Of a stretch of 56,143 nt of DNA, positions 6,210-55,532 are shown piece after piece. The position numbers and the translations under genes are program-made. The DNA lies in NCBI GenBank assembly GCA_017462755.1, contig JAFTQM010000075.1:1-56143 (forward strand). Direction: 5' to 3'. Within the stretch, counting starts at the first letter, position 1. Each line of letters opens with the position of its first letter. The notes under the pieces are model-generated. The model was not told where the DNA came from and searched no databases. It saw nothing but the letters and a program-made list of their open reading frames with translations. The stretch comes from Lachnospiraceae bacterium (GTDB lineage: Bacteria > Bacillota > Clostridia > Lachnospirales > Lachnospiraceae).

Positions 6210-6962
6210 TCATTCTCCCAGCAAACTTTCTAATATTTTCTCCGGTGCATCCATAAACCTTTTTGTCACAATATAATGCTCCGTATCCTTATAATCAACA
6301 GCTTTAATCCCGGCCTTTGTTATTTCCAATACTTCTGAATTTGGAAATGTCATCAATATTGGTGAATGTGTAGATATAATAAACTGCGAATTATTATCCA
6401 CTAATTTCTGCATACAAATCATTAAGCGCATAAGCCGCATCGGTGATAGTGCAGCTTCCGGTTCATCCAATATATATAATCCATTTCCAAAAAAACGATT
6501 CTCCACTAAAGACATAAAACTTTCTCCATGCGATTGCTTGTGTAATGACACTCCTCCATAATTTGAAATTATCTTCGGTTCGAATCCCGGTTCTGCATCC
6601 AGCTCATCTATATTGGAAGCCACATTATAAAAACTCTCCGCTCGTAAGAAAAAGCCATCTCTATGTCGCTTATAGCCTTTACAAATGGTAAGGTATTCGT
6701 GCAAGTTTGAATGAGAATCATTTGTGGAAAAATTGAAGTTCACAGTTCCTCCCTCCGGATTAAAACCCATAGCAACAGCAAGTCCCTCAATAAGAGTAGA
6801 CTTGCCAATTCCATTTTCCCCAACCAGAAATGTTACTTTTTTATTAAACTGCAGTTTTCCCATCGCACACAAATTATGTACTACCGGTAACTTGCTTAGA
6901 TAATTATTTTTAGGAATTTCCTTCGATATTCTAACATCACGTATGTATAAATCACCATTCAC
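6210..6962 (-). CDS. SMC/ABC-type AAA ATPase
   Basis: A compact 250-residue ATPase of the OLD/RecF/ABC type. Walker A is GENGIGKS (48-55), a signature-like HKQSHGESFM lies at 141-150, Walker B with catalytic Glu is YILDEPEA (163-170), and the switch histidine is in IISTHSPI. There is no long coiled coil and no nuclease domain. The start codon is GTG with GAGG 8 nt upstream. It has no partner gene next to it, so it is not obviously half of a two-gene defence system. The gap before topB carries only a doubtful short reading frame. Confidence 0.8.
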   Translation of the reverse strand: MNGDLYIRDVRISKEIPKNNYLSKLPVVHNLCAMGKLQFNKKVTFLVGENGIGKSTLIEGLAVAMGFNPEGGTVNFNFSTNDSHSNLHEYLTICKGYKRHRDGFFLRAESFYNVASNIDELDAEPGFEPKIISNYGGVSLHKQSHGESFMSLVENRFFGNGLYILDEPEAALSPMRLMRLMICMQKLVDNNSQFIISTHSPILMTFPNSEVLEITKAGIKAVDYKDTEHYIVTKRFMDAPEKILESLLGE

Positions 6963-8532: not shown

Positions 8533-9174
8533 CTATCCCACTCTCTCTTCGATCTCCATCAGCGCATCAAAGACCTCCGCAGCAGTGATTTCATTCAAGG
8601 CACATCCCTCAAAAAATCCTCTCTCCATCAGCTTTACCGCTGCATTTACACCCTTTTCGTTATAAACCGAAAAATCCTGCAGCATTCGCTCCCGCTTTTC
8701 TTCCTCTTGATTATACAGCAATTCACGAATCGTCTGGAAGGCACGTTGCATATCTCCCAACTCATTATCCAGCCAAGTAATCTTGATTCCTTTACTTTTA
8801 GCAAAGCTACTATGCTGAATTAAATTCATAGCCCCACCGTAATCATCTCTCGCCGCAATGACCACATTTCGGATATGCCCCATAACCAAGGTTCCCATAC
8901 ACATAATGCACGGCTCCAAGCCCGCATACAGCGTATACGTTTTCGGATTCGGATGCTTTCTCACATCAAGATTGCGGATAGCCTCTGCCTCCGCGTGCGC
9001 CGTTGCCGGATTCGGCACATTGCACTCTGATATCTGATTTCTTCCCTCCGAGATGATCTCACCATTTTCATTTACAATCACTGCTGCAATTGCCTTGCTT
9101 CCTTCACAGATGGATTCCCACTCAAGCTCAAAAATCCGTTTCCACGGAAGCGACAAATCCGAATATCGTAGCAT
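8533..9174 (-). CDS. Nucleoside deaminase (CDA/TadA-like)
   Basis: A zinc-dependent deaminase of 213 residues. The metal site is complete: H60-A-E62 (TAHAEAEAI) and P88-C89-I-M-C92 (EPCIMCMG). The first 150 residues match the cytidine/deoxycytidylate and tRNA-adenosine deaminase fold; the last 60 form an extra helical tail (EVFDALMEIEERVG). Substrate could be guanine, cytosine or a nucleoside. ATG at 9174 is preferred over GTG at 9195 because AGAGG is 8 nt upstream. It probably ends an operon with the nucleotidyltransferase and acetyltransferase genes. Confidence 0.82.
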   Translation of the reverse strand: MLRYSDLSLPWKRIFELEWESICEGSKAIAAVIVNENGEIISEGRNQISECNVPNPATAHAEAEAIRNLDVRKHPNPKTYTLYAGLEPCIMCMGTLVMGHIRNVVIAARDDYGGAMNLIQHSSFAKSKGIKITWLDNELGDMQRAFQTIRELLYNQEEEKRERMLQDFSVYNEKGVNAAVKLMERGFFEGCALNEITAAEVFDALMEIEERVG

Positions 9175-9200
9175 AAGCTTACCTCTTTTCCTCACGATTT

Positions 9201-9599
9201 TTATTTTATACTCTTTAAGTCCTTCTCACGGATAAAAGCTTCAATTCTTTTAATATCCGCATAATCTTTCTCTCTGCTCAAATCTTTCTTCATAGCAAGC
9301 AGACCTGCAAGCGAGATAACCGGAATATTTTCAACCAACTCCACCTTATCGAATAACCAGTCTTCAAAAATCTCTATATCGCTCTCAACCTCTATCCTTC
9401 TCGTACCATCACTCATTCGAGTTGTTTTATAGCCCTGTTTTTCGAGTTCATCTGCCAGTCTCTTGCTGCACCCCAAATCAATATCTCCGGTTTCTTCTTT
9501 GATACCGTACAAAACCATTGCTCCACCGGTAATCAACCAGTACTCGTTTTTATCAAAATCCATTTTTTTCAATCGACAAATAAGCTCTGTCTTGTTCAT
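9201..9599 (-). CDS. Small nucleotidyltransferase-fold protein
   Basis: A 132-residue protein resembling minimal nucleotidyltransferases. The motif WLITGGAMVLYGIKEETGDIDLG (starting near residue 17) fits the GG/S...DxD pattern, and a third acidic position may be in ESDIEIFEDW. The C-terminal ISLAGLLAMKKDLSREKDYADI is the usual 'K-x-x-x-x-R-x-K-D-x-x-D' tail. The start MNKTELI follows GGGAGG. Such proteins modify small molecules, tRNA or, as MNT-like antitoxins, a HEPN toxin; no HEPN partner is present, so a metabolic or tailoring role is as likely. Confidence 0.65.
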   Translation of the reverse strand: MNKTELICRLKKMDFDKNEYWLITGGAMVLYGIKEETGDIDLGCSKRLADELEKQGYKTTRMSDGTRRIEVESDIEIFEDWLFDKVELVENIPVISLAGLLAMKKDLSREKDYADIKRIEAFIREKDLKSIK

Positions 9600-9622
9600 T
9601 TCTATGCCTCCCTGAAAGCCAC

Positions 9623-10096
9623 TTAACTCTTTTTCATTCGAACAAACATCCCTGTTCCGCTTGGTGTTGTTAATTCGCACGGAGCTCCGTCTATCTCAAA
9701 ACCTGCCTTTTGATAGCATTTTATTGCCCGCTGATTCCATGTCCGTACCTCAAGACAAAGCGGCTTATTCGGAGACTGCGCTTTCGATGTTCGGTAGACT
9801 TCATCTAATATCCGGCGTCCGAAGCCCTTCCCGCAGCAATTCGGTCGAACCCCGATGCCAATCAGTACCTCCGTGGACTCTTCCCTCCTATTGACAAAGC
9901 CTACTAACGTATCTTCCACCAAAAAGACACGGTAGTTCTTTTCCTTTTGAGGATTCATAAATCCACTTCCCGCCTTACACATTTCTTCGTATGACGGCAA
10001 ATTATAGATTGCATACTCTCCTTCATATCTCCAAGAACAAATCTCCCTCTTATCTTCTTCCGTTATGTCACGACATAACATGATTTTTTCTTCCAT
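9623..10096 (-). CDS. GNAT-family N-acetyltransferase
   Basis: A 157-residue GNAT protein. Motif A is IGVRPNCCGKGFGRRILDEVY (Q/R-x-x-G-x-G form, here CCGKGFG), and the C-terminal part has ..RAIKCYQKAGFEIDG, the typical NxxAIxxYxkaGF signature. It begins ICSWRYEGEYAIYNLPSYEEM, a form seen in RimI-like or aminoglycoside-like acetyltransferases. It starts 5 nt after the peptidase-like gene and ends 23 nt before the nucleotidyltransferase gene, so the three are likely one transcript. Substrate unknown. Confidence 0.85.
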   Translation of the reverse strand: MEEKIMLCRDITEEDKREICSWRYEGEYAIYNLPSYEEMCKAGSGFMNPQKEKNYRVFLVEDTLVGFVNRREESTEVLIGIGVRPNCCGKGFGRRILDEVYRTSKAQSPNKPLCLEVRTWNQRAIKCYQKAGFEIDGAPCELTTPSGTGMFVRMKKS

Positions 10097-10101
10097 CGGT
10101 A

Positions 10102-10596
10102 TTACCTCATTCTCTCTATCGCATCAAAAATCTGTTTACGGAAGCTTGCAAAATCCGTAATGTTCTTTGCAAACGGAATATGCACAAAGATCATTTTTGT
10201 ATCAAGATTGTTTTGAAAAATATATTGCAAACCGTTCCAATACAAGCAGTTGCAAAACGATGTTCCGGCATTGTGTGAGATTTTTGAGTTCATCCCATTC
10301 TCATTAAACAACTGCTTTAATTTATCACAATCAAAATTGGTTTCAAGCTGCAGTTCACCGTCTTTTGCAGTTGTCTCGATATGGACTTTGTTTTTGATAT
10401 TCGGTCGTTGTCCAAAGCTGATGACAAAATCCGGCTTGTCCTTCGCTATCGCATTTACTAACTTGTCCGAATCCTTCACTTTATCATTAGGTAACAAAAT
10501 GGTTCTGTAATCCTTGATATCCTTTATCAATTTTTCCGCAGAAGTACCACAAAAGGCGGTTAATATAATCCGGGACTTAATTATGTTTTGAATCAT
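10102..10596 (-). CDS. Pyroglutamyl-peptidase I-like protein (peptidase C15)
   Basis: A 164-residue protein similar to pyrrolidone-carboxylate peptidases but shorter than the usual 200-215. The triad can be placed: Glu in VHIETTAKDGE, the nucleophilic Cys in HNAGTSFCNCLYW (family NAGTxxCN), and His in IFVHIPF (family hVP). ISFGQRPN matches the substrate-loop region. Members remove N-terminal pyroglutamate from peptides. The ATG at 10596 is used; a TTG at 10614 with a good GGAG is an alternative and would add six residues. Confidence 0.7.
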   Translation of the reverse strand: MIQNIIKSRIILTAFCGTSAEKLIKDIKDYRTILLPNDKVKDSDKLVNAIAKDKPDFVISFGQRPNIKNKVHIETTAKDGELQLETNFDCDKLKQLFNENGMNSKISHNAGTSFCNCLYWNGLQYIFQNNLDTKMIFVHIPFAKNITDFASFRKQIFDAIERMR

Positions 10597-10623
10597 ATGC
10601 TCTGCCCTTTCCAAGCCTTTCTC

Positions 10624-11199
10624 CTACCTTCTCCCGAAGTACCTAAACGTATGCTTTCGGTAGTTTTCATACTCCTCGCCAAACATGCGGCGCATATGTT
10701 CTTCCTCCTGCAAAATCTGAAGATGCAGCATCACTGCCGCCCAAACAGATACAATTACCAGCGGAATATTACAAAACATAAGACATATGGACGAATATAA
10801 CAAATCAAATCCGACAAACGCCGGATTCCGGCTCCACTGATAGATTCCATCGGTAATCAGTGTTGTTTTTTCTTCCGGAATCCCTACTCTCCAGCTGCTT
10901 TTCATGGTAATTGTAGCAAACGCAAAGAAAAGTATCGCAATAACACCAAGTACCATTCCGGCAATTCGAACACCTTGCGGAAGCTCCTGCTTCACAAATA
11001 AAATACTGCTCACTTCAACCACTATCGTCAATACCGTGGCAACGCTCATAATCCGTTCAATCAACAATACTTTCTTGGGCTTGTTCCCCATGCCCATCTG
11101 ATTCGTCTTAATGGATTGTTTTTTCTGCAATACAATTTTCGCAATATAAAATGTATAAAATAAGATCAAAATAGAAAATGCTGCAATTTGATAAACCAT
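10624..11199 (-). CDS. Isoprenylcysteine carboxyl methyltransferase-like membrane protein
   Basis: A 191-residue membrane protein with about four hydrophobic helices. The C-terminal half has the ICMT/PEMT hallmark: GIYQWSRNPAFVGFDLLY, then LQILQEEEHMRRMFGEEYENYRKHTFRYF. The RNP and EE-x-x-x-x-x-F-G-x-x-Y residues bind S-adenosylmethionine in the family. Bacterial members methylate lipids or unknown small molecules. GGGGAGG precedes the ATG. It is followed closely by the peptidase-like gene (27 nt), so it may head that operon. Confidence 0.8.
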   Translation of the reverse strand: MVYQIAAFSILILFYTFYIAKIVLQKKQSIKTNQMGMGNKPKKVLLIERIMSVATVLTIVVEVSSILFVKQELPQGVRIAGMVLGVIAILFFAFATITMKSSWRVGIPEEKTTLITDGIYQWSRNPAFVGFDLLYSSICLMFCNIPLVIVSVWAAVMLHLQILQEEEHMRRMFGEEYENYRKHTFRYFGRR

Positions 11200-11318
11200 A
11201 TGTTCTTCCTCCCCTAAGCTTTGCTTTCATCAGCCATGCTCCCACTGGAATCTAGCCATCCCGTCTGCTCTGATATTTTCATTATATCCCGACCCGCTCA
11301 CCCTTTCAACAGAAACTA

Positions 11319-11347
11319 TTGCAATTCTCTCAGAAACTGTCTACAAT
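11319..11347 (+). promoter_or_regulatory. Sigma-A promoter for the LUD-domain gene
   Basis: TTGCAA (11319-11324) and TACAAT (11342-11347) are separated by exactly 17 nt. The predicted start is near 11354, giving a leader of about 54 nt ahead of the AGGAGG of the LUD gene. Confidence 0.65.
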
Positions 11348-11407
11348 GAAAGATAAGAAAATACCTGCTGATGCATTCCAGCTAGGTCAAAAACAAGGAG
11401 GATGCTT

Positions 11408-12043
11408 ATGTCACCGAAAAAGCAAAATTATGAGAATCTTGCGGACAGCATGATTGAGAAGTTTAATTTGAGAGGAATTGAGGGATATTACTGCGACAAT
11501 AAGGAAGAGGCTCTTGCTATGGCAAAGCGTTTTCTGACTCCGGGCTGCAGTGTCAGCTTCGGCGGCTCTATGACCTTAAATGAGATTGGTCTGATTGAGG
11601 AATTAAAAAAATCCGATTATGTACTTTATGACCGCGCAGATGCAGTTACTCCAGAAGAAAAAACGGCAATGTATGCTAAGATTGTAACTGCCGATTATTA
11701 CTTTATGAGTTCCAATGCGATTACATTAAACGGCGAGTTGGTAAATATTGACGGTTTTGGAAATCGTGTTGCCTGTCTGATTACCGGTCCAAAGAATGTC
11801 GTTATCATCGCCGGTATGAACAAAATCGTCCCGGATGTTGACAGTGCGATTGCACGTATCCGCAATATCGCAGCTCCGCCAAACGCCGTTCGTCTGCATA
11901 CCAAAACTCCTTGTGCCGAACTGGGACGCTGCGCAGATTGTCTGACCGACGACTGCATCTGTTGCCAGACCGTCATTACCAGAAAGTCACGCATTCCAAA
12001 CCGTATTAAGGTAATTTTGGTTGGGGAAGAGTTGGGATTCTAG
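11408..12043 (+). CDS. LUD-domain (LutC-like / DUF162) protein
   Basis: A 211-residue LUD-domain protein. The N-terminal part has the typical SVSFGGSMTLNEIGLIEEL segment and ADYYFMSSNAITLNGELVNIDGFGNRVA, which match the family core. Near the C terminus a Cys cluster (CAELGRCADCLTDDCICC) may bind a metal or Fe-S centre. Relatives act with lactate oxidation (LutABC), but stand-alone copies are common in Clostridia and have no proven role. AGGAGG overlaps an upstream ATG at 11402, so the ATG at 11408 is the start. It is alone on the plus strand. Confidence 0.82.
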   Translation: MSPKKQNYENLADSMIEKFNLRGIEGYYCDNKEEALAMAKRFLTPGCSVSFGGSMTLNEIGLIEELKKSDYVLYDRADAVTPEEKTAMYAKIVTADYYFMSSNAITLNGELVNIDGFGNRVACLITGPKNVVIIAGMNKIVPDVDSAIARIRNIAAPPNAVRLHTKTPCAELGRCADCLTDDCICCQTVITRKSRIPNRIKVILVGEELGF

Positions 12044-12306
12044 GAAGTATATAGCTACACAAAAATACACTGACTAGATAACAAGTTTCTTATTAGGCGA
12101 TTACAAAGCAGAATAATAGTTCCAAAAAGCGAGAGGATAAATTATTTTTTGTAAACATCTTAGATTCATAAAAAATATTAGATTTGTATATGAAAAGAGA
12201 GTTGAACTCTCATAGGGTTATCTGGGCACAACAATCCTAGGCTGCCAACTGACAGCTTGAGATTTTCTATATGCGAATTGCAAAAAACATGAAAGTGAGG
12301 TAACAT

Positions 12307-12912
12307 ATGTTAACACCAAGTGTCACAAAAACGATTTATGATATATTTTCAAATACACCGGATCAAAATGATAGACTTAACCTCCTCAGTTTTGAACTAA
12401 AAGAAAAACTAAACTTTGACGTAAACAGTCACACTGAAATAATAGACCCAATTCTTAACGAAATAGTAAAACTGGAATTCAACTGCAATTTTATAGCGGA
12501 GTTTGAAACAAGCGGAAACAATAGCACGGGAATAAAAGGTTCAGAAGTGTTCGCATGTCTGGAACCGATCCAGCACAATCAAAAACTGATTGTGTTAATA
12601 ATGTCCTTGTCGCAAATAATAGGGAGGAAGACAGCATTTCATATTAGAGCCATTCGCCATGAATTGAGTGCAAACGCACGCAGGAATGGAACAATCGAAA
12701 AGTATATCGAAAAGCATATTGATGAGTTTTCGTTATACAAGGGAAACTTATTATCCGATGTAAAAAATGTGTTTACCAAAAAAAACACCGAGGGCGCGTT
12801 TAATGAACATAATTACGGATATTTACTGATAGAATCTTACGACGGGCAAGATAGTGGTCACAATTGCAATATTTACACGGGAGGACGAGTAAATAAGGTC
12901 ATTATGTGGTAA
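12307..12912 (+). CDS. Orphan protein of unknown function
   Basis: A 201-residue soluble protein I do not recognise. It has no signal peptide, membrane segment or clear catalytic motif. The middle (KLIVLIMSLSQIIGRKTAFHIRAIRHELSANARRNG) looks helical and basic; the end is Asn/Gly-rich. Codon use favours A and T more than the neighbours, and it lies among a structured repeat, a decayed toxin locus and a recombinase, so transfer is likely. GTGAGG precedes the ATG. The leader has a perfect palindrome GAGAGTTGAACTCTC (near 12199) and a short GCTG...CAGC stem. Confidence 0.6.
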   Translation: MLTPSVTKTIYDIFSNTPDQNDRLNLLSFELKEKLNFDVNSHTEIIDPILNEIVKLEFNCNFIAEFETSGNNSTGIKGSEVFACLEPIQHNQKLIVLIMSLSQIIGRKTAFHIRAIRHELSANARRNGTIEKYIEKHIDEFSLYKGNLLSDVKNVFTKKNTEGAFNEHNYGYLLIESYDGQDSGHNCNIYTGGRVNKVIMW

Positions 12913-12945
12913 AAGTAACAATGGACTGCCCTATATAAGTAAAGC

Positions 12946-13099
12946 AAAGCCGTTGCAAAACAAATCAAAACTATCCTATCGCGGATGCGTTTTCACTACC
13001 TCGGACTCGTAACGGGTACATAAGGCGCTAAAATACAGCGCCTAAGTCCCTGGCTGTCTTCAAGTACCTGCTGATATTTTGTTCATTTGCAACGGCTTT
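12946..13099. repeat. Dispersed structured element, copy A
   Basis: A 154-bp non-coding element bounded by a perfect 14-bp inverted repeat, AAAGCCGTTGCAAA (12946-12959) and TTTGCAACGGCTTT (13086-13099). Its centre is a 7-bp hairpin, AGGCGCT (13023-13029) and AGCGCCT (13037-13043). The core is clearly related to a second copy at 55280-55494, including the stretch around GGTACATAAG...CTAAGT and the terminal TTCATTTGC. It sits between two convergent genes. It may be a non-autonomous mobile element or a structured RNA; see findings. Confidence 0.75.
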
Positions 13100-13158
13100 T
13101 CTGGACATTTTTACAAAATTTACAACTATTCTACTAATCGTTTCTTACATTTCACTTC

Positions 13159-13626
13159 TTATTTTACTCCTGCACCTCTCAGCGCACATACAATCATTGC
13201 AAAACCTGAAATGACGGATATATAGGCTCCGGCAGCAAACTCTAGCGAACTCCAATAATCATCAAAATAGCTACCAATAAAATAAAAATAAGCTATATAT
13301 GTTATGATTGACAAAACTAATGCCGGAATATGCTCTCCCGCATAAAAGCATCCCGCTGTAATAATCAACAATACCACAAAATATTCAATATTTGTTATAG
13401 CCAATGCTGTAGAACCTAAATAACTATCCAAAAACGGAAAAAACAATGTTGATATCAATGTAATAGCGGCTGTAACCATACCACTTACATTCCGTTCCAC
13501 CATTTGACAAGTTGGTGTCGGAATCGATGTTCTTCCAGCCCCCAAAAGACTGCCTACTGTTTTTCCGCATTGCGGACAAAACTTTGCATCTTCCGCAACC
13601 TCTTTTCCACATTCGCCACAAAACAT
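13159..13626 (-). CDS. Zinc-ribbon membrane protein
   Basis: A 155-residue protein with an N-terminal zinc ribbon, MFCGECGKEVAEDAKFCPQCGKT (CxxC-x12-CxxC), a Ser/Thr/Pro linker, and about four hydrophobic segments (for example AITLISTLFFPFL, VVLLIITAGCFYA, LVLSIITYIAYFYFIG). This layout is common in Clostridia and has no set function. The ribbon lies on the cytoplasmic side if the usual topology holds. AAAAGGAG precedes the ATG. It follows the Ig-like protein gene by 29 nt and is probably cotranscribed. Confidence 0.8.
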   Translation of the reverse strand: MFCGECGKEVAEDAKFCPQCGKTVGSLLGAGRTSIPTPTCQMVERNVSGMVTAAITLISTLFFPFLDSYLGSTALAITNIEYFVVLLIITAGCFYAGEHIPALVLSIITYIAYFYFIGSYFDDYWSSLEFAAGAYISVISGFAMIVCALRGAGVK

Positions 13627-13655
13627 AGCATTGATCTCCTTTTCCTAGTCATTCT

Positions 13656-14315
13656 TTAGTTCTTTACTCTTATCTTAATTTCTGCGTACTCTCCAGTCGG
13701 TAAGGTTGCTTTTATATACGCCGTTCCCGCTTTTTTCGTAGTAACCAAGCCTTTGCTCGAAACCGTTGCAACTGTTTTTTTAGAGCTTGTCCACTTCGCT
13801 TTATCGGTTGAGTTTTCAATCACTGCGCCAAGCTGTATTTTCGTACCTTTTACTACAGTAATCGAATAAGAAACCGTTGGAGTCTCGTCCGGGGTAAATG
13901 TGTAATAAAGATCTGTATAACTTTCTACCTTTCCTTGCACATAAACCGAAATATAGTATGTTCCTTTTTTCAAGCCTACAATTTCACTTCTTTGATTATC
14001 TCTCAATTCTCCTTCCTGTATTAGCACTCCGTTCGCATCCATTATTCTCCAATCCAACCTACAACTCTCATATGATAAATATATACTATTTACAGCAGTA
14101 CAATATAATGTTACTGTCCCTGCTTTCGAAAGTGTTATTGCATAATAATTGGTTACAGGGTTGTGTTTTCCTCCAAAATCCTCCGAAAAAAACTCCAACG
14201 GCTCCATCTTGATTGCGGTATCAAACATTCCTGCCGCCTTCGCTCGTACCGGCAACATTGATACTACCATCAATGCTGTTAACACCACTGCCATCCATCT
14301 CTTTACTCGTTTCAT
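13656..14315 (-). CDS. Secreted protein with PPC-like and bacterial Ig-like (Big_2) domains
   Basis: A 219-residue exported protein. It has an N-terminal Sec signal (MKRVKRWMAVVLTALMVVSMLPVRAKA), a PPC-like beta domain (about 40-140, with NYYAITLSKAGTVTLYC and GTYYISVYVQG), and a C-terminal Big_2 module (SKKTVATVSSKGLVTTKKAGTAYIKA). There is no sortase motif or lipobox, so it is probably secreted or loosely bound to the wall. GGAGG precedes the ATG. Its promoter region is the short spacer shared with the recombinase gene and contains the first palindrome. Confidence 0.82.
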   Translation of the reverse strand: MKRVKRWMAVVLTALMVVSMLPVRAKAAGMFDTAIKMEPLEFFSEDFGGKHNPVTNYYAITLSKAGTVTLYCTAVNSIYLSYESCRLDWRIMDANGVLIQEGELRDNQRSEIVGLKKGTYYISVYVQGKVESYTDLYYTFTPDETPTVSYSITVVKGTKIQLGAVIENSTDKAKWTSSKKTVATVSSKGLVTTKKAGTAYIKATLPTGEYAEIKIRVKN

Positions 14316-14350
14316 ACTTTTGTACCTCCATGTGTTTTTGTTTTTTGATG

Positions 14351-14372
14351 CAACATTTTAGATAAAGTGTTG
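14351..14372. repeat. Left palindromic site flanking the recombinase
   Basis: A 22-bp near-palindrome with arms CAACATTTTA and TAAAGTGTTG, followed by GCATTTT. Its reverse complement differs from the right-hand site (15074-15095) at one position. A second, shorter inverted pair lies inside: ATACTTATTA (14385-14394) and TAATAAGTAT (15039-15048). A possible promoter for the recombinase (TTGCAT-17-TATCTT) starts within the site's last three bases, so it could act as an operator, an att half-site or a terminator for transcripts from the left. Confidence 0.6.
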
Positions 14373-14437
14373 CATTTTCCTATCATACTTATTATCTTTT
14401 TACTGCTATCTAGTAAAATTATTTCAAGGAGGTTTTT

Positions 14438-15016
14438 ATGAGCACGACACAGCCAATCAGAGATTTGAAGGAGCTTGAGATTTTAAAAAACTATTATCGT
14501 ACCATTCGACCAAATCTACGAAACTATGTACTAATTCACACAGGATTAAATACCGCACTTCGCATCAGTGATTTACTTACTTTACAATGGAAAGATGTTT
14601 ATGACTTTTCCCGAAATTGTTTTCGAAACCATATCTCATTAATTGAACAAAAGACGGGAAAGGCATCTTCTATTGCCATTAATCATTCCCTTCATCAGAC
14701 ATTGTCTGAATACCTACTTTCCCTTCCTTCCGTACTTCCTGATGAGTTTCTTTTCCCCGGTCGGAATGCCAATATGCCACTTTCACGTTCACAAGCATTT
14801 CGCTTAATTAAGCATGCATGTACTCAAACTAAACTACCAGAGCACATCAGCTGTCACTCTCTACGCAAAACATTTGGTTATCACGCATGGGCTGCAGGTG
14901 CAAATCCAACAATACTCATGATGATCTATAATCATTCTTCTTTCAGTATCACAAAACGATACCTTGGCTTAGAACAAGACGATAAAGACCAAATTTTTTT
15001 GTCCATCAATCTATAA
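14438..15016 (+). CDS. Small tyrosine recombinase (FimB-sized)
   Basis: A 192-residue tyrosine recombinase consisting of little more than the catalytic domain. All catalytic residues are present: R42 (NTALRISDLL), K72 (EQKTGKAS), H140 and R143 (CHSLRKTFG), H166 (YNHSSFS) and nucleophile Y175 (TKRYLGL). The N-terminal arm-binding and SAM-like domains are missing, as in FimB/FimE-type inversion enzymes. AAGGAGG precedes the ATG. The gene is alone and is boxed by near-identical palindromes, so it may act on them. Its AT-rich base composition and codons differ from the neighbours, suggesting transfer. Confidence 0.85.
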   Translation: MSTTQPIRDLKELEILKNYYRTIRPNLRNYVLIHTGLNTALRISDLLTLQWKDVYDFSRNCFRNHISLIEQKTGKASSIAINHSLHQTLSEYLLSLPSVLPDEFLFPGRNANMPLSRSQAFRLIKHACTQTKLPEHISCHSLRKTFGYHAWAAGANPTILMMIYNHSSFSITKRYLGLEQDDKDQIFLSINL

Positions 15017-15073
15017 ATTTTTTTCTTTTTATCTAAAGTAATAAGTATATTATGTCGATATAAAAGAAGAATA

Positions 15074-15095
15074 CAACACTTTATCTAAAGTGTTG
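15074..15095. repeat. Right palindromic site flanking the recombinase; also a likely terminator
   Basis: A 22-bp near-perfect palindrome with arms CAACACTTTA and TAAAGTGTTG, followed by GCATTTTTTATTTT, 57 nt after the recombinase stop. As RNA it forms a 9-bp hairpin with an ATCT loop and T-tail, so it can serve as a plus-strand terminator. It is also the mate of the site at 14351-14372. Confidence 0.6.
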
Positions 15096-15219
15096 CATTT
15101 TTTATTTTCTCCAACTGCTTTTCCTTTTATTCTTCTCAGTATTAAACATTTAACTATGAATCAAACCCAAAAGCTACTTGACACAACAATACAAAAAACT
15201 TATAACTAAATTAAGAAAA

Positions 15220-15246
15220 GGGCATTGCCGATAGACGGTCTGCCCC
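15220..15246 (-). terminator. Hairpin at the 3' end of the decayed toxin locus
   Basis: GGGCA...CCGATAGACGG...TGCCCC folds into a two-part hairpin followed on the minus strand by CTTTTCTTAATTT. The form 'GGGGCAGACCGTCTATCGG' followed by 'CAATGCCC' is familiar from the 3' ends of Firmicutes type I (holin-like) toxin transcripts. A second stem, GCAACC (15272-15277) with GGTTGC (15292-15297), lies just upstream and matches the usual arrangement. Confidence 0.5.
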
Positions 15247-15308
15247 ATATAGTAGTTAGTTAAATGAATAAGCAACCACAACTTGGGCGGCGGTTGCTTT
15301 TTTCATGC

Positions 15309-15403
15309 TCATTTTTTCTTGCCTGACTCGTGCCATGCCACGGTAAGTACCAAGCTCACAATAGACAATTATCATATCATAATCCAAAAAAGTCGTAAGT
15401 CAC
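15309..15403 (-). pseudogene. Frameshifted type I (holin-like) toxin remnant
   Basis: On the minus strand GAGGA is followed by GTG and reads VTYDFFGL, the usual start of small hydrophobic holin-like toxins. A second frame then gives LSIVSLVLTVAWHESGKKK and a stop, the usual transmembrane-plus-KKK end. The distance is 95 nt, not a multiple of three, and stop codons lie between the parts, so the gene is broken. The two hairpins downstream are the 3' end of the locus. The 458-nt interval between recombinase and glyA holds only this remnant, the palindrome and terminators. Confidence 0.45.
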
Positions 15404-15412
15404 TCCTCAAAA

Positions 15413-15454
15413 AACCTCCCCTTTCATCAGGCTTACCTAACGAAAGGGGAGGTT
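15413..15454. terminator. Terminator of glyA
   Basis: AACCTCCCCTTTC (15413-15425) and GAAAGGGGAGGTT (15442-15454) form a 13-bp stem, followed on the minus strand by a T-run. It begins about 22 nt past the glyA stop. Confidence 0.85.
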
Positions 15455-15475
15455 CTATTTGTCTTTTTTTATTTC

Positions 15476-16714
15476 TTAGTACAACGGATAAGCGTCGGTC
15501 AACTTCTTTACGATAGCCATTGCCTGCTCCTTGTTGCCATCCAAATCCTTGATTGCAAGGGAGATTGCCTCTGCGATTGCATCCATATCCTTTGGCTGTA
15601 AGCCTCTGGTCGTAATCGCTGCAGTACCAAGACGGATACCGCTGGTTACGAATGGGGATGCAGGGTCGTTTGGAACGGTGTTCTTGTTTGCAGTGATGTT
15701 TACTTCATCCAGTGCATGCTCTGCAGCCTTACCGGTAATGCCCATGTTCTGCAGGTCTACTAACATTAAGTGATTGTCCGTACCATCGGAAACAATCTTA
15801 AAGCCTCTTGCCATTAAGCCCTTGCAAAGTGCCTGTGCATTGTCAATGATATTCTGTGCATATACCTTGAATGCAGGGTCGAGTGCTTCCTTAAAGCAGA
15901 CAGCCTTTGCTGCGATTACATGCATCAGAGGACCACCCTGGATTCCCGGGAATACTGCCTTGTTTAACTTATACTCATTTGCGAACTCTTCGCTGGAAAG
16001 AATCATACCACCTCTTGGTCCGCGTAAGGTCTTGTGAGTCGTAGTTGTGGTAACGTGTGCGTATGGGATTGGGCTCTCGTGGCAGCCTGCTGCTACCAAA
16101 CCTGCGATATGAGCCATATCCACCATCAGGAAAGCACCTACTTCATCTGCGATTTCACGGAATCTCTTGAAATCAATCTTTCTTGCATATGCGCTGGCAC
16201 CTGCTACGATTAACTTCGGCTTGCACTCCTTCGCAATACGCTCTACCTCTGCATAATCAATGAAACCGTCATCATTTACACCATAAGGTACGATATTAAA
16301 ATAATTACCGGAGAAGTTTACCGGGCTACCATGAGTCAGGTGACCGCCATGTGCCAGATTCATACCCATTACCGTATCGCCCGGCTTTAACAGTGCAAAG
16401 AACACTGCCATATTTGCCTGCGCACCGGAGTGTGGCTGCACATTGGCATAAGTACAACCGAACAGCTGCTTTGCACGCTCGATTGCCAGATTCTCAGCTA
16501 AGTCTACAAACTGGCATCCGCCGTAGTAACGCTTTGCCGGATAACCCTCTGCATACTTGTTGGTCATTGGGCTGCCCATTGCTGCCATAACTGCCTTGCT
16601 TACGAAGTTCTCCGAAGCAATCAGCTCGATATGATCCTGCTGTCTGCCCAGCTCTAAGCTGATGCTCTCAGCCAATTCCGGATCAAAATTCTTAATCTCA
16701 TCAAAAGAATACAT
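15476..16714 (-). CDS. glyA: Serine hydroxymethyltransferase
   Basis: A 412-residue PLP enzyme that interconverts serine and glycine while charging tetrahydrofolate with a one-carbon unit. Diagnostic blocks include [46 protein letters not shown] and the PLP-lysine motif [14 protein letters not shown] (Lys near residue 225). The start [11 protein letters not shown] is chosen because GGAGG lies 8 nt upstream; the earlier ATG (MEDKK) overlaps that binding site. Length matches the family. It has its own promoter and terminator. Confidence 0.96.
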
Positions 16715-16748
16715 CTTCTTATCCTCCATTATAAAAATCATTGTCTCG

Positions 16749-16754
16749 ATTATA
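16749..16754 (-). promoter_or_regulatory. Extended -10 promoter of glyA
   Basis: The minus strand reads TGGTATAAT, an extended -10 element, 35 nt before the glyA start codon. The -35 region is weak, which fits an extended -10 promoter. Confidence 0.5.
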
Positions 16755-16804
16755 CCACATTAATCTGCTAAAGGAAAGAACTTTTTCCAAAAAATTATCC
16801 GAAT

Positions 16805-18955
16805 TTACTCGCTTTTCAGCCGCTCAAGTTCTTTCTTTAAGTACGAATAATAATCATCCGTAATAATCGTCGCCGAAACATTAAATTTGTTCTTTACAAT
16901 CGACGAAACGGTCTTGACATAATCCTCCGGCAATTCCTCGTCGGTCAACTTTGTTACCTCGCCGGTCTTCGAATTGTACATTACCTTATCGGTAATATAG
17001 CTCTGGTTTGAGAACATAACAAGCGGTGTCGCCGTCGAAAGAATATCCTGTCCCATAAACAGTCTGGAGTCATATTCCACGCCGAACAGATTCAGTACGG
17101 TCGGTACAATATCCATTGCCGAGCAAGGCTTTTCAACCGTTATCGGCTCCATGCCCGGACAATACAGCACCAGATGACTCTTGTACAGTTCGAAGTTTCC
17201 CTCTACCTCATGACCTGCCAGCTCATCAATCTGCTCCTTCTCCAATCCGTACGGATAGTGGTCACCGGACAATACAATGACGGTCTTGTCTGCAACTCCT
17301 GCTGCCTCCAGCTCTGCCAGCAGATATTCCAGCGCGAAATCAAGCTCCTTTTGGCACGCCAAATATGCCTTAGCTTCGTCACTCAAATCCAGATGGGATA
17401 CATAACTCTTGTTCTTTGCCGACATGGAGTTGCCGGTAAAATTGTAATCCATATGACCGCTTACCGTCATATAGTAGGTGTGGAACTTCTCGTCTCCGAT
17501 ATATTCCGAAACCGTCTTTTCCATCATCTCAAGGTCAGACTCCGGCCAAGTCTTCTTTACCGTCAGACCATTGCCGAGTCCCTTATAATCATAGCCCATA
17601 TTCGGATGCGTCTGATCTCTGTGATAATAGGAATAGGTGTGGTTGTGATATGCGCGTGTCGAATACCCCAGCTCTCCAAAAATCCAGCCAAAGCCGAACG
17701 GCATATAATTATCCGCAGTCTTGGTAAAGCTGTTGGTTCCGGTCGGAATCAGACCGGTACACTCTACAAATTCACCATCACTGGTACTTGTCCACCAAAG
17801 CGGCGTATAATAATTTTCGAAATAAAAGCCCTCATGCACCATCTTGTAAAGCGTCGGTGTAATCTCCTCATTCACCGCCCACTGCGAATATCCCTCGGCA
17901 GTCAGCATAATCAGGTTGTAGCCCTCAAACATACCGGTATATTCGTTTTTATTGGTCGGTGTCGCATTTGCAAAATAGTTGTGCAGATTTTTTATCTTTT
18001 TCTTAGATTCGTTTTCCGCCAAGCCTGCAAAATCAATGTCTAACACGTTTGGTGATGTGTCGATCGGGGTTGGCGTCGGCGTTGGGCTCGGTGTCGGGGT
18101 CGGACTCGGCGTCGGCGTTGCATCCGGCTCTCTGGTTGGCTCCGGTCCTACTGTCGGCATTGGCGTCGGTGTGAATGTCGGCACCGGGGTCGGACTCGGC
18201 GTCGGCGTACTGTCCGGTATCTCGATAAAGGTCACATCATCCCCATCTCCTTCGACTCCAAACAGAATCTGCTTCAAATCCTTGCCGGTGGATGGCAGAA
18301 CTCCCAGCTTTTCCATCGACAAATCCATCAAAAATTCATTGTGATACAAATCATATGGTGTATGTGCTTCCTTTCCCGGAATCAACAGCACCAAAAGGAA
18401 GAGTACATACAGCACCACGCCCGCACCCAGCGTTCCCAATGACACCTTCCAGTTCTGCTTAGGAAACGAAATCCACTTCTTAACCAGCAACACAATCAAC
18501 GCAATCAATGGCAACAGGAACAGAAGAATCGGCAATATCTTCGCTCCGATGGCACGCAGTGCCTGCTCATAAAATTCCATCGCATCCGCACCATTTTCGC
18601 CAATCGAATAAATTGACAAAAAGGTTTTAAATATATGCTGATACACTAGCTGTGCGGAATACCAAATACCGGAAAGTACGGAAAACACAATTGCCAGTAC
18701 CCGGTTGACCTTTTCCGGACACAGTGTCAGAATTACGCTTCCAATCGTACCAATGGCAAGCGCAAATAACAACGGGTATACGATTTCTCCTGCCATTCCC
18801 CGAAACGCAAACAAATGAAACAACAGCTCTTCATAAAAAAACATGAGTGGCAGCCACAGCAGTCCTGCCAGCGTTTTAAACTCCGGCTTATTTCTTTGCT
18901 TTTCTGCGCTCTTACTCTTCGTATTTTCTTCCTTTTGCACTACTTTCTTCTGCAT
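16805..18955 (-). CDS. LtaS-like membrane sulfatase-fold phosphoglycerol transferase
   Basis: A 716-residue polytopic protein. After a charged N-terminus there are about five membrane helices (residues 30-195), then an extracellular Thr-Pro-Ser-rich linker (about 245-300), then an alkaline-phosphatase/sulfatase domain. Metal and catalytic positions visible: LTAEGYS (metal Glu), the nucleophile region TSTSDGEF near residue 390, VSGHMDY and LSGDHYPYG. LtaS-type enzymes move glycerol-phosphate from phosphatidylglycerol to teichoic or lipoglycan chains. The proline linker between membrane and catalytic parts is much longer than in staphylococcal LtaS. GAGG precedes the ATG. Confidence 0.88.
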
Positions 18956-53775: not shown

Positions 53776-53849
53776 TTGTCTTTTCCTCCTGAATTTTAAG
53801 TTTTTTCACTTTTTGCCGGCGCTCGCAGCTTCTTGCAAAGTATTATAAT

Positions 53850-54010
53850 ATCCGGATATTTCGACTCAGCGATACATACATCCGCCTTCTCAGAATTGCT
53901 TCCAATGGCATTTCCCGGATTGTGGCGTCCGGTAAGGATATATGAAATTGATTCGCATCACGGCGACGGGCTCGTATAGGATTTACACCTATTTCCCCGA
54001 ATATTACTCT
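53850..54010 (-). promoter_or_regulatory. Cobalamin riboswitch
   Basis: The minus strand reads GGGGAAATAGGTGTAAATCC followed by TATACGAGCCCGTCGCCGTG, which fits the conserved cobalamin core (GGGAA..GGTG.AA.TCC....CCCGC.AC.G), then GCCATTGG...GAGAAGGC and GAGTCGAAATATCCGG, corresponding to the P6/B12-box end. It lies about 75 nt before the DUF4430 lipoprotein start. No clear terminator follows, so control may act on translation. Confidence 0.85.
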
Positions 54011-54044
54011 CTATCATAAATTTATGATATACATTATAACCAAA

Positions 54045-55253
54045 CTATTTATTTACCATCAGCTTACCCATTGCCTGATTCAGCCCTGCTACCGTCAGCT
54101 TGTACATTGGGAACAGCTCCTTAATTGCGGTCTCCGCTTCTCTCCAAGGGGCATGTCCCGGTGCCATCTTTGGATTCAGCCAGACTACCTTCTTATAATG
54201 CCTCTTTAACAGCTGTAACCAATCCCAGCCTGCCAAGCCGCCGTTCGGTCCGCGATAATTGCCCGTGGTAGAATACAGCTCCTCCGGTGCCATTGCCGCA
54301 TCTCCGACAATAATGACCTTGTAATCCTTGTCCAACTGCCGGAATACCCAGTCCGTATCCACCCAGTCACCGTTCTCACATTCCGGTGTCCGATACAGCT
54401 TACTATAAATACAGTTATGAAAATAATAGGTTTTGACATCCTTGTAATGATTCGATTTATGCACTGCCTGAAACAAATCATTTAACAGGGAGCTAAACGG
54501 TATCATTGTGCCGCCGGAGTCCATCAAAAGCAACAGCTTTACTGCGTTTTTGCGCGGCTTCTTCATCACAATCTGCAGGCATCCGCCATTGTTACAGGTC
54601 TTATCCACGGTTCCGTCGATATTCAGCTCCGTTTCCGGAATATCTAACTTGGAAGAAAGCTGACGAAGCTTTCGCAGCGCCAGCTGAAACTGCCGCTTGT
54701 CAAGCACGCGGTCATCACGGAAATCCCGATACTTACGCTCTCCAATCACTGCAAAGGCTGACTGGTGTCCGGTCTTACCACCGACACGCAGACCGCCAAC
54801 ATTGGAACCACTGTTACCGTAGGAGGTCTTACCCATACTTCCGATCCAGAGATTACCGCCATTGTGCTCATCGTCTTGCTCCTTGAGTGTCTCACAGAAC
54901 TTCCGCTCGATTTCTTCCTTATCCACATGCGACTGCAAATCCTCAGTTTCATTCAGCTTGGAACGCGCTTCCTCGTCTGCCAGCTCCTGCAGCTCTGACT
55001 TGTCCAGCCAACGCAACATCTGCGCCGAAACTTCCTTCTCGTACTGCACTGACTTGAAGCATTCCTCAAACGCCATATCAAATTTATCAAAATCCGTCTC
55101 ACTCTTCACCAGAATCATGCGCGCCACATGATAAAACTGCGTCAGACTGCTTCCGCACAAGTCCTGCTGCAGCGCTTCCTGCAACGTCAAAAACTCTCCC
55201 AACGTCACATGCAGATTCTTCTCTCTTAAGCTGTGAAAAAACTTTGTGAACAT
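54045..55253 (-). CDS. VWA-domain protein (CoxE-like), partner of MoxR ATPase
   Basis: A 402-residue protein with a helical N-terminal half and a C-terminal von Willebrand A domain. The metal-site motif is LLLMDSGGTM (DxGGT in place of DxSxS), with a second loop GDAAMAPEEL. The acidic middle contains a Gly/Asn-rich stretch (GNLWIGSMGKTSYGNSGSNVGG). The start MFTKFFHSL follows GAGAGG; the 12 codons before it belong to the inverted repeat of the structured element. Acts with MoxR-type AAA+ proteins in cofactor insertion or complex assembly. Confidence 0.82.
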   Translation of the reverse strand: MFTKFFHSLREKNLHVTLGEFLTLQEALQQDLCGSSLTQFYHVARMILVKSETDFDKFDMAFEECFKSVQYEKEVSAQMLRWLDKSELQELADEEARSKLNETEDLQSHVDKEEIERKFCETLKEQDDEHNGGNLWIGSMGKTSYGNSGSNVGGLRVGGKTGHQSAFAVIGERKYRDFRDDRVLDKRQFQLALRKLRQLSSKLDIPETELNIDGTVDKTCNNGGCLQIVMKKPRKNAVKLLLLMDSGGTMIPFSSLLNDLFQAVHKSNHYKDVKTYYFHNCIYSKLYRTPECENGDWVDTDWVFRQLDKDYKVIIVGDAAMAPEELYSTTGNYRGPNGGLAGWDWLQLLKRHYKKVVWLNPKMAPGHAPWREAETAIKELFPMYKLTVAGLNQAMGKLMVNK

Positions 55254-55279
55254 AGCATTTCCTCTCACAAAATATACTT

Positions 55280-55494
55280 GATTAGGCATTTATGAAAATA
55301 AATAAGTTTCGAATCGCCCTTGCAAAATGAACTAAAACCGCCGCAGGCACGCTCTCGCTACCGTCGTCACACAGCGGTACATAAGACGCTGAAATACAGC
55401 GTCTAAGTACCGGCGGTCTCCAGGTACCTGCTTGGGTTTTATTCATTTGCCGGGCTTTACCGTAACTTTCCATACTTTTCATAAATGCCTAATC
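55280..55494. repeat. Dispersed structured element, copy B, with 19-bp terminal inverted repeat
   Basis: The outer arms GATTAGGCATTTATGAAAA (55280-55298) and TTTTCATAAATGCCTAATC (55476-55494) are perfect complements. The inner core (about 55320-55450) matches copy A: TTGCAAAA at one end, TTCATTTGC at the other, and the hairpin AGACGCT (55384-55390) with AGCGTCT (55398-55404). It separates the MoxR and VWA genes, which are otherwise expected to be adjacent. Confidence 0.75.
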
Positions 55495-55532
55495 TTTTAT
55501 ATTTTTCTTGTTTTTTAGCCTTAAAGCACTCT

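Follow-up and report, generated by a model that had tools for sequence, protein, structure and literature searches.

A probable MITE-like mobile palindrome with a conserved foldable centre in the Lachnospiraceae

The window analysed here, the whole stretch of 56,143 nt from the genome of a Lachnospiraceae bacterium (assembly GCA_017462755.1, contig JAFTQM010000075.1), contains two copies of a palindromic element (Table 1), both of which were found where the original prediction had placed them. Copy 1 is flanked by convergent open reading frames (ORFs), one of 201 aa without a Pfam match and the other for a zinc-ribbon protein. Copy 2 is flanked by an AAA protein gene and a VWA/CoxE-like gene (a weak match), and its core strand (minus) is co-directional with both. 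A cobalamin riboswitch aptamer was also recorded in the window (53834-54049, minus strand, 48.1 bits).

Table 1. Positions of the two element copies and their parts in the window.
Feature	Position	Strand	Basis or remark
Copy 2, whole element, 209 bp, intact	55283..55491	-	Inverted ends of 16 bp without mismatch; folds as one long hairpin
Copy 2, left terminal inverted repeat TAGGCATTTATGAAAA	55283..55298	.	Similar to TAGGYAATTGCGAAAC in copies that have a target-site duplication
Copy 2, right terminal inverted repeat TTTTCATAAATGCCTA	55476..55491	.	Perfect 16-bp pairing with left end
Copy 2, apex stem-loop	55365..55422	-	Covariance model R1, 72.7 bits
Copy 2, mini-hairpin GC-GAGA-GC, GNRA loop	55351..55358	-	Sequence; loop tallied over copies
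Copy 1, inner arms and core, degenerate	12946..13099 (extent as originally predicted)	-	R1, 47.2 bits
Copy 1, apex stem-loop, one conserved T-A pair broken	13003..13062	-	Model R1
Copy 1, mini-hairpin GT-GAAA-AC	12989..12996	-	Sequence; compensated relative to copy 2

Nearly the whole element can fold back as one hairpin, and its centre is conserved across many genera. The region 55262-55512 around copy 2 folds as a single long hairpin of -104.0 kcal/mol; no target-site duplication was seen by eye at this copy. Copy 1 is a decayed copy of the element, with 47.2 bits against 69-87 bits for the other 31 apex matches of its own genome. Its arms AAAGCCGTTGCAAA/TTTGCAACGGCTTT have retained their pairing despite degeneracy, and neither recognisable TAGG-type ends nor a target-site duplication was found there. 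When window positions 9000-17000 were compared with congeners, four of six genomes matched (the own genome included) and no usable empty site for copy 1 was obtained.

The core is read from the complement of the printed strand, the only strand on which the GNRA loop is present. Its apex stem is closed by an invariant neck, CGGUACUUA...UUAYGUACCG, which carries a variable, Watson-Crick-paired upper stem and a G-U...U loop and is adjoined by a GNRA mini-hairpin with a stem of 2 bp. The minus-strand sequence GGTAGYGARARCG, earlier noticed as common to both copies, is this mini-hairpin, and the difference between GT-GAAA-AC and GC-GAGA-GC adds a second compensated pair to the one already pointed out in the central stem, where AGGCGCT/AGCGCCT versus AGACGCT/AGCGTCT is a true compensated change from G-C to A-T. 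The additional shift proposed for the flanking GGGTAC/GTCCC stem turned out not to be compensatory and reflects decay of copy 1; among 30 aligned copies of the own genome, 29 have T-A at this pair and only copy 1 departs from it.

Two copies were an undercount. Covariance model R1 gave 33 matches in the own genome, corresponding to about 31 copies, as one match is the opposite strand of another (contig C34) and those on C20 and C42 are probably two parts of a single copy interrupted by contig ends; with these matches, chance similarity of the two window copies was ruled out. A BLAST search with copy 1 retrieved 30 places in the same genome at E < 2e-9, copies 2 to 30 spanning 4e-29 to 1.4e-9. 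The search of further Lachnospiraceae genomes that had been suggested as a check likewise yielded copies: the apex model matched in 139 of 397 family genomes, or 126 of 334 genera, at E<=0.01 (E-values in this search are rough), 119 genomes, counted from the list, reached E<=1e-4, and 258 had no match. Up to 14 matches per genome occurred among the matches listed, and copy number spans 1 to at least 32 across genomes. Six copies were found in a second genus (genome G007), and a DNA search found none in five congeners of the window genome. In a class-wide sample six of 291 genomes were positive, every one of them Lachnospiraceae. A pattern scan of named genomes returned at least 118 stretches, mostly from Lachnospiraceae among the titles listed, Coprococcus catus and Butyribacter intestini being two of the carriers; a few titles of metagenome-assembled genomes name other groups (Gastranaerophilales, Muribaculum), the labels being taken as given, and a match in Formosa (L184), which has no fold, was dropped as chance. 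An origin from phages or plasmids was rejected: the exact core pattern occurred in 0 stretches of the viral contigs of IMG/VR, PLSDB plasmids gave no match, and phage records yielded three weak, partial matches to unannotated faecal phages. Searches of the window, of 4 loci and of 11 loci against Rfam 15 gave no match to the core at or above the gathering score, so that identity with a known Rfam family was rejected and the earlier statement that no named family with this core was known was upheld for Rfam; no description of such an element was found in a literature search of open-licence papers.

Evidence for mobility was obtained from the ends. Among the loci examined, 44 elements could be delimited by their inverted ends alone, without reference to the apex, and 42 of these measure 200-219 bp, the other two 260-269 bp. 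The ends are TA...TA terminal inverted repeats (TIRs), of the TAGGYAATTGCGAAAC type in many genera. Target-site duplications of 9-14 bp were found in 29 of the 44 elements, 26 of them abutting the ends exactly (two of 9 bp, ten of 10, six of 11, seven of 12, three of 13 and one of 14 among the 29), and none in the other 15, compared with a mean of 0.05 and a maximum of one duplication-bearing element in 20 shuffles; a single genome (G200) supplied 11 of the 29, some of these having been retrieved via the end pattern. We take the duplication length to resemble that of IS4-family elements. When 177 copies were scanned with the apex as anchor, 16 had repeats of at least 10 bp (2, 2, 1, 2 in shuffles) and nine had repeats of at least 12 bp (0, 1, 0, 0 in shuffles). 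The TIR pattern matched 73 times in G200 and 11 times in the own genome (G000), with 0 matches for the reversed pattern; two of ten apex-positive genomes tested, G302 and G233, had strong apex matches (1.1e-18 and 3.5e-18) but no match to it. An empty site was recognised in the sister genome G585, where 6 nt stand in place of 288 nt of G219; nine further congeners, inspected by eye at this site, lack the core. In G693 (L285, C30:6200-6800) the site that is empty in G585 holds a different long palindrome with a CGCTCTCGC motif and another apex.

Duplications, ends, length, copy number and intergenic spread define a MITE-like element. The element is thus best read as a small, non-autonomous mobile palindrome belonging to a new MITE-like family of the Lachnospiraceae, with ERIC and YPAL compared by description only; we give this reading a probability of about 0.7. 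The non-autonomous mobile element that the original prediction had offered as one option is borne out by the TIR-delimited lengths and the target-site duplications. It would be moved by a transposase supplied in trans, which is a guess because a search for TIR pairs at insertion-sequence distance revealed no autonomous partner in G200, in the own genome or among the matches listed for ten further genomes. Several shortened forms were observed. L040 (G000 C11:131799-131839) has kept its arms and lost the apex. L041 (G000 C20, ~6297-6337) and L042 (G000 C76, ~42029) are bare hairpins with the AAAGCCGTTGCAAATG arms of copy 1 and no core, probably core-deleted derivatives. Mini-hairpins of ~40-100 bp with little beyond both ends were seen at L349 (G000 C75:29378) and as close end pairs, e.g. 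G184 C59:14798-14845.

Paired changes are frequent. In the 30 own-genome copies a compensated double change was found at 16 of 40 predicted pairs; with the six copies of G007 added to the own-genome copies, 95.6% of cells pair and double-change cells number 68 versus 17.8 after shuffling. In 86 non-redundant copies both sides change at 18 of 25 pairs, giving 366 double-change cells versus 104 after shuffling and 36-76 in slid controls. Selection of these 86 used a regular expression in which the neck is fixed and GNRA favoured; the invariance of the neck and GNRA columns is therefore partly built in, and free evidence comes only from the mini-stem, the upper stem with its variable pairs and those pairs that lie below the neck. 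An absence of further copies and of covariation had been named as grounds for giving up the original prediction; the about 31 copies and the excess of double changes speak for the opposite outcome. The step from covariation to a selected fold is invalid for a palindromic mobile element, because one arm of a palindrome can be copied from the opposite arm; G-U intermediates are few in the variable apex stem, and in the outer arms single A-C mismatches are as common as G-U.

The strongest rival explanation accordingly holds that the covariation reflects arm correction and not selection of a fold: template switching would copy one palindrome arm onto the other, and a mutation would therefore be compensated in one step. 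We consider this a serious alternative, with somewhat less than an even chance. It is favoured by the variable upper apex stem of the 86 copies, which is nearly without intermediates, with double changes in 164 of 344 cells and G-U in just two; such near-absence of G-U is unusual for an RNA evolving via wobble intermediates. Compensated transversions in the outer arms point the same way. When 12 closely related copies of the own genome are compared, little varies in their inner and middle parts, and the outer arms show 70 compensated, 151 uncompensated and 392 unchanged cells; the compensated changes comprise 14 transversions beside 56 transitions, and single A-C mismatches number 47 versus 31 G-U. 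Arm correction or pairing as DNA accounts for this mismatch pattern no less well than selection on RNA. At one site shared by two sister species (L118/L101) the arms are completely different and each set is still complementary, as arm correction would allow, but this could be explained by rapid arm turnover or by two independent insertions. Uncompensated arm changes in some shared copies weigh against the rival: the sister-species copies L115/L114 have near-identical arms with two uncompensated changes, and in the sister-species pair L110/L105 the latter is a decayed copy. Nor does arm correction account for the conserved neck, for unpaired bases that never vary or for a GNRA loop lying off the palindrome axis.

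Further variation was observed in and around the arms. L240 and L254 have left and right arms from different subfamilies, as if recombined through the core. In an own-genome subfamily (L014-L029, e.g. L022) an extra paired layer TTGAGTTTCC...GGAAACTCAA flanks the element, and a separate small hairpin near L011 shares its ends with that subfamily. At six loci (L046, L047, L325, L326, L346, L367) the GNRA loop or the apex loop has taken up additional hairpins, so that one hairpin is nested in another.

Selection on the core is argued by its invariant unpaired bases and the GNRA loop, and not by covariation. In an unbiased tally of 188 copies, 176 have a closable 2-bp mini-stem and 12 do not; the 176 loops comprise 161 GNRA, 13 ANRA and two others; in 174 the third loop base is a purine, and the closing pairs are compensated (GC/GC, GT/AC, AC/GT). 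A comparison of mismatches between the strands was less uniform. Over all arm positions G-U and A-C were balanced (448 vs 444); at 11-40 nt from the apex their ratio of 172:63 favours the core strand, within 10 nt of the apex it runs in the opposite direction (23:40), beyond 40 nt there is no G-U excess, and the 86-copy core without three columns of fixed or frequent wobble has 18 G-U and 22 A-C. Because this test is mixed, strand-specificity rests mainly on the GNRA loop and the three wobble columns. Of the small structured RNA earlier proposed, the strand-specific folded core thus stands, with a fold conserved far beyond two copies, but covariation alone is no proof of such an RNA.

For the mobile palindrome preferred here, it is simplest to suppose that the core is read as a folded single strand, either RNA or single-stranded DNA during replication or transposition, by the factor responsible for moving or maintaining the element. 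The reader of the core would be the mobilising enzyme or a host protein that lets the element persist. The outer arms would drift quickly because only arm complementarity would matter, and one arm may be re-copied from the other in the hairpin. As to the nature of the strand, the GNRA loop points to RNA and the near-absent wobble in the upper stem to single-stranded DNA, so both remain candidates. A more specific version, which we regard as rather unlikely, makes the element a structure-recognised mobile palindrome with a folded single-strand intermediate, in which the GNRA-and-apex core is a putative protein-binding site and arms and ends may change provided that their pairing is kept. The core-binding protein may then be a reverse transcriptase, an HUH or DDE enzyme or a host RNA-binding protein, and the element, if this were true, would in effect be a bacterial counterpart of a SINE.

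It could also be proposed that the core is a structured RNA with a host function, a transcribed sRNA or a protein-binding mRNA hairpin whose fold is selected and whose mobility is incidental. The nearly constant purine at the third GNRA position, the compensated closing pairs and the retention of the fold in 126 of 334 genera agree with this, but the genomic context gives it little room. Flanks of 900 nt or more on each side were available for 135 of 178 distinct copies, and only five of these lie inside an ORF of at least 150 aa as called by a simple script. The 130 classified copies comprise 51 in antisense-tandem, 40 in sense-tandem, 21 in divergent and 18 in convergent position, and no recurring neighbour ORF adjoined the element in 18 loci read by eye, after which a partner gene was rejected. 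Because orientation is near-even and no neighbour recurs, no one-strand role in cis is evident. A copy number of 1 to at least 32 between genomes, the 258 of 397 family genomes without a match and the rarity of G-U among the variable apex-stem cells weigh against it as well, and a host function as the primary explanation is judged improbable. Ordinary transcription terminators or their by-products are a very improbable source, since the constant length near 210 bp, the exact TIR-delimited duplications, the 91 of 130 classified copies between co-directional genes and a conserved core with no role in termination outweigh the resemblance of some arms to terminator stems (AAAGCC...GGCTTT in copy 1) and the bare hairpins with the arms of copy 1 elsewhere in the genome, which fit core deletion as in L040.

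Known RNA families were met near a few copies. Clostridiales-1 RNA was matched below its gathering score of 48 at L050:1119-1261 (40.9 bits) and L054:1389-1512 (24 bits), neither on the core, the latter overlapping the left arm on the opposite strand. A ZMP/ZTP riboswitch lies ~150 nt downstream of the element in a single-copy genome (L073:1708-1810).

In the human and ruminant gut, the Lachnospiraceae are one of the chief families of butyrate producers. More than a third of the sampled family genomes carry the element, often in at least ten copies, and an unnamed intergenic repeat with target duplications affects assemblies, operon spacing and transcript structure. The usual rule for MITEs is reversed, as the centre is conserved and the ends are not, and for this reason the enzyme or partner of the centre is a defined, findable target. 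The element also offers a natural test of whether palindrome covariation stems from RNA selection or from arm correction.

Among known systems, REP/REPIN sequences with their RAYT transposase are dispersed hairpins with a GTAG-like foot, unlike which the present element is much longer and has terminal repeats and target duplications. Prokaryotic MITEs are described in the excerpted account of PMC10969869 as short, non-coding, intergenic sequences with inverted ends, target duplications and hairpin-forming transcripts, type II MITEs resembling autonomous insertion sequences (IS) only in their TIRs. The element is short, non-coding and multi-copy; it has terminal inverted repeats, with copy 1, G302 and G233 lacking this type, and target-site duplications in 29 of 44 cases, neither window copy showing one. 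Unlike the type II MITEs of that account, its conservation is not confined to the ends: the centre is kept more widely (apex in 139 of 397 genomes, two of ten apex-positive genomes being without the TIR), and no IS was found among the matches listed. Correia/NEMIS elements, palindromic neisserial MITEs whose transcript hairpin is cut by RNase III (excerpts of PMC10969869 and PMC2229807), differ in their hosts and, as far as these excerpts go, in that the element conserves a core and not ends alone. The excerpt of PMC2229807 presents YPAL (RU-2) as an intergenic palindromic mobile element without protein, whose ~168 bp contain internal inverted repeats, whose ends lack TA and whose target-site duplications measure 3 to 26 bp. 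Both are intergenic, protein-less palindromes with duplications of variable length; by that description, however, the length, internal repeats and TA-less ends of YPAL were not found in the Lachnospiraceae element, which has terminal repeats starting with TA, ~210 bp, duplications of 9-14 bp and a GNRA core across genera. ERIC (IRU, RU-1) appears in the same excerpt as an enterobacterial multi-copy intergenic palindrome of 127 bp with TIRs, a duplication and TA ends (PMC2229807), and thus shares with the element, by description, all of these features except its length and its hosts; no comparable conserved apex with variable, compensated arms is described in that excerpt. In the best reading, likened by description, the element would work like ERIC or the YPAL of Yersinia.
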